From an uncultured Bacteroidales bacterium (GTDB lineage Bacteria > Bacteroidota > Bacteroidia > Bacteroidales > Muribaculaceae), in the NCBI GenBank assembly GCA_902792895.1, contig CADBBK010000021.1:1-52761 (forward strand): DNA of 52,761 bases. Reading direction: 5' to 3'. The notes under the pieces are model-generated. The model did no database searches, was not told the origin of the DNA, and saw only the letters and a list, made by a program, of their open reading frames with translations. Both the position numbers and the translations under genes were made by a program. Below, in pieces: positions 15,796 to 17,733 of the stretch. Numbering within the stretch: position 1 is the first letter of the stretch; each line of letters begins with the position of its first letter.

Positions 15796-15803
15796 TATCT
15801 TTG
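15796..15803 (+). promoter_or_regulatory. -7 box TATCTTTG, radical SAM operon
   Basis: A perfect box ends 21 bp before the ATG at 15825. The nearest upstream TTG (15769-15771) is 24 bp away, longer than usual, so an activator may be needed. Confidence 0.7.
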
Positions 15804-15824
15804 CCCAAAAATGAGAAGTTGCCC

Positions 15825-16904
15825 ATGAATGTGCATCAACAACAATGGCTCGAGGCAAACCGTGACTACGTGCAGCGCCTGAAGAAAGAACACCCCCTGC
15901 GGCAGCTGTTCTGGGAGTGTACCCTGCGCTGCAACATGGCGTGCCGGCATTGCGGCAGCGACTGCATGAAGGTGTCGTCGGTGCCCGATATGCCACTGTC
16001 CGACTTCCTGCCTGTGCTCGACGATGTGGCGGCGCACTGTGACCCCAGCCAAGTGCTGGTCAACACTGTGGGCGGTGAGCCGCTGGTGCGCCCCGACCTG
16101 ATGGACTGCGGACGCAGCATCCGTGAACGCGGTTTCATGTGGGGCCTAGTGACCAACGGCATCGGGCTGGACCGCTCGATGGCCCGCGAGATGGCACAAG
16201 CCGGCATCAACACGCTGGCCATCGATGTAGATGGTACGCGCGAGGACCACAACTGGCTGCGCAACTCCACCACGGGCTTTGACCGTGCCATGGAGGCAGT
16301 GGAGGCGGTGCAAACCATCCCCCACCTCACCTGGGATGTGATTACCTGTGTCAACAGCCGCAATATCAACCGGCTCGATGAACTCAAGCATCTGCTGGTC
16401 GAGGCGGGCGTCACCCGATGGCGCTGCTTCACCATCATCCCGATGGGGCGCGCCGCCAACGACGAGAGCCTGCAACTCACCGATGAACAGTTCCGCGACC
16501 TGCTCAACTTCATTGTCGTCACCCGCCGCGAGGGCAAAATCAGGCTGAGCTATGCCTGCGAGGGTTATCTGGGCGCCTATGAAGGGCTCGTGCGCGACTA
16601 CTTCTACAACTGCCAGGCCGGGCTGACGGTGGCCAGCGTACGCGCCAACGGTGACATCTCGGGCTGCCTGAGCGTACGCAGTGACTACCATCAGGGCAAC
16701 ATCTACCGCGACCGGTTCTGGGACGTGTGGGAAAACCGCTTCGAGCAGTACCGCGACCGCGAGTGGATGCGTCACGGCATCTGCCAGGACTGCGAGGCGT
16801 TCCGCTACTGCGAGGGCAATGGTTTCCACCTGCGCGACGAGCACGGCGACCTGATGCTGTGCCACTATAACCGACTGAAGAACATCAAACTCCAACCCCA
16901 ATAA
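15825..16904 (+). CDS. Radical SAM/SPASM enzyme, rSAM/lipoprotein-system type
   Basis: A 359-residue protein. The 4Fe-4S motif is C36-x3-C40-x2-C43 in FWECTLRCNMACRHCGSDC, with extra cysteines at 32 and 47. The SPASM region (about 265-350) carries further cluster ligands in YFYNCQAGLTVAS, GDISGCLSVRS, HGICQDCEAFRYCEGNG and LMLCHYN. From memory it closely resembles the Bacteroidetes family TIGRFAMs calls rSAM enzyme of the rSAM/lipoprotein system (TIGR04133), whose product is unknown. SPASM enzymes usually modify peptides or proteins. The ATG at 15825 is chosen because the -7 box lies upstream; an ATG at 15811 is out of frame. It overlaps nothing and is followed 13 bp later by the putative target gene. 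Confidence 0.9.
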   Translation: MNVHQQQWLEANRDYVQRLKKEHPLRQLFWECTLRCNMACRHCGSDCMKVSSVPDMPLSDFLPVLDDVAAHCDPSQVLVNTVGGEPLVRPDLMDCGRSIRERGFMWGLVTNGIGLDRSMAREMAQAGINTLAIDVDGTREDHNWLRNSTTGFDRAMEAVEAVQTIPHLTWDVITCVNSRNINRLDELKHLLVEAGVTRWRCFTIIPMGRAANDESLQLTDEQFRDLLNFIVVTRREGKIRLSYACEGYLGAYEGLVRDYFYNCQAGLTVASVRANGDISGCLSVRSDYHQGNIYRDRFWDVWENRFEQYRDREWMRHGICQDCEAFRYCEGNGFHLRDEHGDLMLCHYNRLKNIKLQPQ

Positions 16905-16917
16905 TACCCAAGGCACT

Positions 16918-17733
16918 ATGAAGAAGAGAAAGAACAAGAACAAGAAATCACTGACCGCCATGAGTGCAGTGGTCGCTGCCGGCCTCACGCCGGGCATTGC
17001 CCTCGTCTCGTCCGCCGCTCAACAGCCCAGGCTAGACGTGGAATATACTGCTGCCGACATGGTTTCGATCAACGGCGAAGTGATGGACTTTGACGAACTG
17101 TTTGACATGCAGCTAGGTGATAACGGAGATACCACCCAGAGCAAAAAACAGCAGGAACGGGCCATCCGCGATTCCATCTCCCGTGCCAACAAGAGCCATC
17201 AGAAGGTCTATGGCCCGCCACCTCCCAACAGGGTCAAGAAGGACCGGAAACGAGACAAAATCGATCAGGAAACGCGCGATAGGCAGATTGCTGATTCGAT
17301 CGCGCAAGCCTACGAGAAGCGAACAGTGCTCGTCTATGGACCTCCCACTCCTATCAACATCGAAGAGATGAAAGCGGCTCACGATGCCGAAGTCAGGGAA
17401 CGCGAAGAGCAAATGGAGCGTGCAATACTGCAGCAGGCCTACAACACCGCCCAAAGCGGGGACAAGGAGGGTGCCATTGAGAAGATTCAGTTCATTCTCA
17501 TGGACTACTGTGCCAGTTTGGTTCAGGATGATGCCAAAGGTCTCCCCATTAGTCCCGACAGCCACTTTATCGATGACCTGAAGATGGATGACAGCCAGTT
17601 GGAGATGCTGAAGCAGAAGGTGGAAGACAGCTTTGACCTGATACTGGCCAACAACGAGCTGGGACAACTCACCTCCCCGAGCCGCCTGGCCAGGTACATC
17701 GTCGAGACCGCCTTGTCACGCCAGCAGCAGTAA
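16918..17733 (+). CDS. Putative radical SAM target: YGPP-repeat protein with carrier-like domain
   Basis: A 271-residue protein. A lysine-rich start precedes a hydrophobic stretch (about 12-33, LTAMSAVVAAGLTPG), an export signal or anchor. TAADMVSINGEVMDFDELFD follows, a pattern that recurs near Bacteroidetes radical SAM genes. Two repeats of about 27 residues end in KVYGPPPP (96-103) and LVYGPPTP (138-145), each preceded by D-S-I-x-x-A. Charged, probably helical linkers surround them. Residues about 183-265 resemble an acyl carrier protein (SPDSHFIDDLKMDDSQLEML), but the DSL phosphopantetheine site reads DDS, so the canonical serine position is Asp225. Its position in the operon suggests it is the enzyme's substrate. 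The function is not established. Confidence 0.75.
   Translation: MKKRKNKNKKSLTAMSAVVAAGLTPGIALVSSAAQQPRLDVEYTAADMVSINGEVMDFDELFDMQLGDNGDTTQSKKQQERAIRDSISRANKSHQKVYGPPPPNRVKKDRKRDKIDQETRDRQIADSIAQAYEKRTVLVYGPPTPINIEEMKAAHDAEVREREEQMERAILQQAYNTAQSGDKEGAIEKIQFILMDYCASLVQDDAKGLPISPDSHFIDDLKMDDSQLEMLKQKVEDSFDLILANNELGQLTSPSRLARYIVETALSRQQQ

Follow-up and report, generated by a model that had tools for sequence, protein, structure and literature searches.

A TIGR04133 radical SAM enzyme and its linked partner protein as a candidate unit for modification at a conserved Tyr-Gly site

The window, which is the whole 52,761-nucleotide stretch of DNA analyzed here (contig C21 in a 3.2 Mb genome), contains a radical SAM/SPASM enzyme gene and an adjoining partner gene that we propose to be a two-gene protein-modification unit. 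The best overall explanation is that this TIGR04133 unit modifies the Tyr-Gly (YG) of its partner, most likely by excision of tyramine, and we give it a probability of roughly 0.55. The YG segments stay constant across the partners, which makes them the likeliest modification sites; that YG is the site is very probable. The tyramine-excising splicing chemistry, drawn by analogy with a characterized enzyme class, stands at slightly better than even odds.

The enzyme gene was located at 15825..16904 on the forward strand, with an ATG at 15825 and a TAA stop at 16902-16904, and encodes 359 aa. Its product scored 510 bits against NCBIfam TIGR04133 (cut-off 425) and is thus a member of this family, as an earlier note on this DNA had suspected. 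Pfam matches were obtained for Radical_SAM (PF04055) and SPASM (PF13186), and the enzyme itself is of an already known kind, a plain TIGR04133 member. The radical SAM cluster motif CxxxCxxC is present as CNMACRHC at residues 36-43 (15930..15953, forward strand), and C36, C40 and C43 were invariant in 146/146 aligned TIGR04133-like enzymes. The earlier start of the system at 15796 is not that of the ORF; it coincides with TATCTTTG (15796..15803, forward strand), 21 bp 5' of the enzyme gene, which by its letters resembles the Bacteroidota -7 promoter consensus and is a possible promoter box. The gap between the enzyme and the partner gene is exactly 13 bp. The partner gene was located at 16918..17733 on the forward strand, from the ATG at 16918 to the stop at 17733, and encodes the 271-aa proposed substrate. 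The coordinates and hydropathy agreed with the previous description of a SPASM enzyme followed 13 bp later by a protein that looks secreted. No third gene was found with the window pair.

The N-terminus of the window partner (residues 1-35; 16918..17022, forward strand) is basic and moderately hydrophobic, with the best 19-residue Kyte-Doolittle mean of 1.83 at residues 12-30, and this character is conserved among the partners. It is a probable export signal or anchor. No lipobox Cys was found, as residues 1-48 contain no Cys; a lipobox-like Cys is kept in 14/70 close partners, and the window partner is not among them. The conserved leader motif TAADMVSING occupies residues 44-53 (17047..17076, forward strand), and an alignment of 34 N-termini has A45 and A46 invariant and T44, V49 and G53 conserved to 90 percent or more. 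The two proposed modification sites are VYGPPPP at residues 97-103 (17206..17226, forward strand) and VYGPPTP at residues 139-145 (17332..17352, forward strand), exactly where near-repeats ending in VYGPPxP had been placed before. They lie in DSISRANKSHQKVYGPP and DSIAQAYEKRTVLVYGPP, respectively, and supply the X-Tyr-Gly triplets V97-Y98-G99 and V139-Y140-G141. An acyl-carrier-like domain lacking the phosphopantetheine Ser was assigned to residues 189-263 (17482..17706, forward strand). The window partner did not match TIGR04134 at E<=1, and no Nif11/NHLP-type match was found in NCBIfam or Pfam.

The genetic linkage of enzyme and partner was established by comparison within the genus. An enzyme relative at E<=1e-100 was present in 63/101 genomes. 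Enzymes at least 63 percent identical to that of the window were defined as clade 1 (the remaining genus relatives are mostly 55-59 percent identical), and they were found in 46 of the 101 genomes at 48 loci. Directly downstream of the enzyme, 47 of these 48 loci contain one to four ORFs sharing the N-terminus of the window partner (one at 31 loci, two at 10, three at 5 and four at 1), and the remaining locus, L050, is cut by a contig end. The resulting partner set comprised 70 ORFs, of which 68 are complete. When the N-terminus common to these partners was modeled, it matched 49/101 genomes, one of them marginally (G012, E 0.008); among the other 48, 46 have a clade-1 enzyme, with G128 and G107 as the exceptions. 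The survey of co-occurrence that the earlier note had proposed gave 46 genomes with both, none with the enzyme alone, two with the partner alone and 53 with neither (Fisher p 8e-27, a value overstated by relatedness).

Several loci departed from this arrangement. The partner copies of G128 lie at a contig start. In G107, two YG partners, one TonB_C-like and one ACP-like, were observed at L212:5254-6537, and the 11 kb examined contained no TIGR04133 enzyme, which suggests that they are orphan or trans-modified. In G110, two shortened partner ORFs of 90 and 60 aa precede an intact ACP-type partner (L102:4124-4860) and reflect either decay or an assembly error.

The Tyr-Gly was a constant feature of the divergent clade-1 partners. 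In the alignment of the 68 complete partners, mean column identity was 17 percent, Ala45, Ala46 and Tyr98 were invariant, and Gly99 and Tyr140 were conserved at at least 90 percent. YG occurs beyond residue 55 in 68/68 partners. In the linker as cut, it was found in 66/68, against a mean of 12.8 and a maximum of 22 in 1000 shuffles. The two partners without YG in the cut linker are that of L058, which has no C-terminal domain, and L109:2889, in which a TonB-like domain lies either side of the YG. The proposal that the YGPP segments are the modification sites gained from this conservation and from the YGxP ORFs of other loci described below; the Y and G were held in homologues beside the enzyme, and the Pro-Pro at +2 and +3 was not. 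A strict YGPP repeat was therefore rejected as too narrow. The residue before YG in clade 1 is mostly M (33 percent), V (22), R (16), K (11) or L (11), and the linkers include NPIRLLYGPRPNP and RPIHLMYGPRRPRP.

The rest of the TIGR04133 family was examined through ORFs of 40-320 aa at 108 distinct loci outside clade 1, all with an upstream flank of 1 kb or more; the downstream kilobase was complete for 101. A same-strand ORF with YG.P, mostly lipoprotein-like, was present within 1 kb upstream at 97/108 loci, compared with three in the downstream kilobase and one on the opposite strand. Two of the three downstream ORFs, at L172 and L177, look like true partners. Inspection of the 11 loci without such an upstream ORF showed a YG partner at seven of them, with a non-ATG start (L202), further upstream (L156), downstream (L172, L177, L183 and L203) or with a variant motif (L032). 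YG without Pro at +3 is kept at L183, L203 and L032 (QYGSWED, CYGVDEG and MYGVRR). No YG partner was seen at four of the 108 loci (L037, L169, L173 and L188). For comparison, 2.9 percent of 443 background YG sites have Pro at +3. In the alignment of 61 longer non-clade-1 partners, a set picked for YG.P, the motif Tyr, Gly and Pro each reached at least 90 percent. Outside clade 1, the residue before YG is mostly V (50 percent), C (12), K (10) or E (10). At L044 and similar loci, such as L187, L191 and L048, the upstream partner has YG straight after the lipobox Cys (QACYGTP, AACYGTP), which would put the site at residues 2-3 once the lipoprotein is mature.

An adjoining YGxP partner gene is therefore common to the window enzyme and most other TIGR04133 members, and it lies downstream in the window and mostly upstream elsewhere. 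Unlike the TIGR04134 partners, the window partner is encoded downstream, does not match TIGR04134, lacks the lipobox Cys and has an ACP-like domain. The view that this architecture replaces the usual lipoprotein partner proved too strong: the usual partners carry YGxP as well, 14/70 close partners keep the lipobox-like Cys, and 15 of the 46 genomes with a clade-1 enzyme also encode another TIGR04133-like enzyme that is more distantly related and in most cases is preceded by YGxP ORFs. Together with the swapped domains of clade 1 described below, these ORFs indicate that YG is the constant of TIGR04133 partners and that the C-terminal domain and lipidation vary.

The chemistry was considered by comparison with PlpX-type spliceases (IPR026482), which we take to be the nif11-class maturase 3 of TIGR04103. 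In Nostoc, a plasmid gene annotated as nif11-class maturase 3 adjoins a Nif11-type precursor ending in ALYGLPPELF and a 71-aa protein. According to PMC11002830, the SPASM enzyme PlpX, assisted by PlpY, removes tyramine at Xaa-Tyr-Gly, so that an alpha-keto amide remains. PMC10533398 gives MYG and LYG as the natural sites of PlpXY and describes the leader as not required. PIRPGYGLPI, a 10-residue tag derived from the PlpA2 core and carrying an engineered GYG, was modified when placed in an affibody and in two of the listed FtsZ constructs; most FtsZ tag constructs, those with PIRPLYGLPI included, were unmodified (PMC10533398). This source also credits Scott 2022 (Chem 8:2659) with 27 other characterized and 939 predicted splicease systems. 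The PIRPGYGLPI tag and the Nostoc ALYGLPPELF resemble NPIRLLYGPRP/NPIRLLYGPRPNP and KLVYGPPPP of the partners described here. In the PlpX-type and the TIGR04133 systems alike, a SPASM radical SAM enzyme adjoins a protein with X-Y-G, often X-Y-G-x-P.

The NCBIfam ranking speaks in part for the PlpX type: the second-best family of the window enzyme was TIGR04103 (126 bits, cut-off 725 not reached), with AhbD, TIGR04053 and NirJ2 close behind. TIGR04103 also ranked second for L034 and third for L003, which scored higher with TIGR04053. The TIGR04133 system differs from the PlpX type in several respects. On the enzyme tree, TIGR04133 formed its own long branch (100/100, length 1.95), so that shared ancestry is no proof of chemistry. 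This separate deep branch did not nest with TIGR04103. No PlpY relative was matched in the genome of the window with one Nostoc small-protein query, whose PlpY identity we assumed and which had no positive control. The partners are exported-looking multi-domain proteins and not leader peptides of the Nif11 or nitrile-hydratase type. Whereas PlpXY substrates have MYG or LYG, the X of TIGR04133 partners is broader: roughly one non-clade-1 site in three has Cys, Glu or Lys, and roughly one clade-1 site in four has Arg or Lys.

Eight PDB relatives of the enzyme were obtained at E<=0.001, and they indicate only general radical SAM folds, such as those of cytosylglucuronate decarboxylase, PqqE and anSME. 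NCBIfam lists TIGR04133 as a hypoth_equivalog with no reaction given. Cys 36, 40, 43, 47, 245, 263, 281, 320, 323, 329 and 346 were invariant in 146/146 aligned enzymes, as was His335, and the position of the anSME CX3C cysteine was never Cys (Gly 103, Pro 26, Ala 12, Ser 5). Because this cysteine is absent and His335 is invariant, one of the auxiliary clusters may leave a coordination site open or have it occupied by His.

An unlikely alternative to splicing is that the enzyme joins the Tyr of the YG site to a neighboring residue through a cyclophane- or ether-type cross-link (-2 Da), the kind of change made by other SPASM peptide maturases. Three-residue cyclophane SPASM enzymes act on aromatic motifs including Tyr, according to PMC11002830, and Pro, Thr, Val or Ala is common at +2 and Pro at +3 in the partners. 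However, the residues at +2 and +3 differ between partners, with the Y and G alone retained, and in two partners (L004 and L180) the sole site is YGG, which provides no C-beta at +2 and argues against a cross-link.

The possibility that YG(xP) is a docking motif only, while the enzyme alters another partner residue or a third molecule, appears less probable still. A conserved motif by itself cannot separate a site from a docking element, and the clade-1 partners do have a second conserved stretch (TAAD..V..DG). Against this, the non-clade-1 partners, a set picked for YG.P, share the YG motif besides the lipobox Cys and one Gly, and several partners carry two to three YG sites, as expected for repeated targets.

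The C-terminus of the window partner gave weak direct evidence for an acyl carrier protein. It matched TIGR00517 with E 0.0074 at residues 210-263 (16 bits, cut-off 70 not reached), the best PDB ACP had E 0.09, and the Pfam run that the earlier note had recommended found no PF00550 at E<=1. Its relatives were more informative. Among the 68 complete clade-1 partners, PF00550 was matched in 29 and TonB_C (PF03544) in 17, and most of the others, the window partner included, align with the ACP-type partners. In hhalign, the window subclade (7 sequences) gave a probability of 88 (E 3e-6) with seven ACPs of these genomes and 96.5 with 10 Ser-intact partner domains. The ACP likeness, judged from these profiles, is therefore weak alone and firmer via relatives. 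Asp225 (17590-17592) occupies the phosphopantetheine Ser position, as the first reading of the sequence had it. The accompanying claim that the domain no longer carries a pantetheine arm fits the window and does not extend to all relatives: in 50 ACP-type partners, this column is Ser in 14, with a DS[LI] context in 10, and Ser is absent in 36. Compared with the seven genome ACPs, each of the ten DS[LI] domains shares 33-46 percent identity with its best match, across 36-80 residues. Sixteen ACP-like domains with LNTLRLI gave an hhalign probability of 15.9 against ACPs directly and 95.7 via the Ser-intact partner domains.

The clade-1 C-termini thus match ACP or TonB C-terminal domains but, unlike them, follow an N-terminus resembling an export signal and a linker with YG in the same protein; the Ser is lost in the window. 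TIGR04069, the acyl-carrier-related family of peptide maturation systems, likewise places an ACP-like domain in a peptide-maturation context and was matched by 5/68 clade-1 partners at E<=0.01; generic ACP models matched more of them with better E-values, and the ACP here is fused to the proposed substrate.

Comparison of loci established that the domains are swapped. Clade 1 was a single group on the enzyme tree (100/98), with ACP-like partners in both halves and TonB_C partners confined to one subclade (100/98). This distribution suggests that the ACP fusion is old within clade 1 and that TonB_C was probably acquired after it; the phosphopantetheine Ser was probably lost more than once. An old fusion would suit the earlier idea of the carrier-like domain as a docking module recognized by the enzyme, but this idea is very improbable, since TonB_C partners without ACP share one enzyme locus with ACP-like partners (L106, L107, L109, L110 and others), the partners of L116 have TonB_C only, that of L058 has neither domain, and no PF00550 match was obtained for 61 longer partners of other TIGR04133 enzymes. 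In these 61, neither PF00550 nor TonB_C was found by Pfam; 47 match TIGR04134 and 34 match the carboxypeptidase-regulatory-like PF13620.

Under the preferred explanation of tyramine excision at YG, the TIGR04133 enzyme would act in the cytoplasm, and its targets would be the X-Y-G sites (in most cases X-Y-G-x-P) of the partner's flexible linker, with a mass change of -135.08 Da per site. The modified partner would then be exported and stay anchored in or at the envelope, so that the modified stretch would sit between the anchor and the domain. The C-terminal domain would be a variable module behind the modified linker and not a recognition element: a degenerate ACP in the window, and ACP, TonB_C, carboxypeptidase-regulatory-like or none elsewhere. 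Speculatively, a tether with a reactive ketoamide might trap a nucleophile or impede a protease. Export is suggested by the N-terminus, by TonB_C in sibling proteins and by lipoboxes in relatives; the partner of L058, which has no hydrophobic stretch, runs counter to it. This odd partner of a clade-1 enzyme (L058:1039-1491; G017, contig C12) lacks the hydrophobic N-terminus, and its single LYGPPYP precedes a tail rich in Cys (CEGCIDRDSCSGDFMSC).

TIGR04133 was named for its lipoprotein neighbor. The near-constant Y-G-(x-P) of the partners, combined with the X-Y-G site of a characterized class, offers a defined reaction at a defined site, with a mass shift that can be tested. A broader reading is tentative and falls a little short of even odds: a Bacteroidales-wide finishing step would cut tyramine from X-Tyr-Gly of lipoproteins, TonB-like proteins and exported acyl-carrier-like proteins, and so plant reactive alpha-keto-beta-amino acids in tethers beside the membrane anchor. 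If true, many bacteria of the gut and rumen would routinely have backbone-edited proteins, TonB-like and carrier-like ones included, in their envelope. We know of no such modification in TonB-like or carrier-like proteins. The open-access literature searched gave no account of TIGR04133, of the "radical SAM-associated putative lipoprotein" or of YGPP with radical SAM, and none of the fusion partners or the family-wide YG rule; Scott 2022 lies outside that scope and may already list some TIGR04133 enzymes.

In a sample of the order, the enzyme was present at E<=1e-90 in 65/295 genomes, 60 of them above the cut-off, and in a sample of the class in 4/295, the genome of the window included and two outside the order. 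Named records with enzyme relatives (32 loci) were mostly Bacteroidales, Muribaculaceae and Prevotellaceae, several of them from rumen or ruminants. The plasmid search placed a TIGR04133 enzyme on plasmid pTS1 of the spirochete Treponema saccharophilum (L274:3592-5068), where a lipoprotein with TSCYGMPENYY is encoded upstream and a DNA invertase gene lies alongside. Thus, the family is not limited to Bacteroidota, and this pair suggests horizontal transfer.

Proteins with YG were also observed beside TIGR04103-like radical SAM enzymes. In a distant Bacteroidota genome, a 165-aa protein ending in LLYGTPPVPLYQAPSK lies just upstream of such an enzyme (L269:2622-3116). Short proteins with PYGVA(I/V)REA or a similar YG adjoin TIGR04103-like enzymes at L266:3018-3468 and L267:828-1248, and similar enzymes adjoin genes annotated DUF1843 at L277 and L279; YG may serve as the site there as well. 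Also in Bacteroidota, the protein at L271:2955-3596 (214 aa) carries six copies of KYGYP(C/G), adjoins a TIGR04103-like enzyme and is a possible multi-site splicing substrate.
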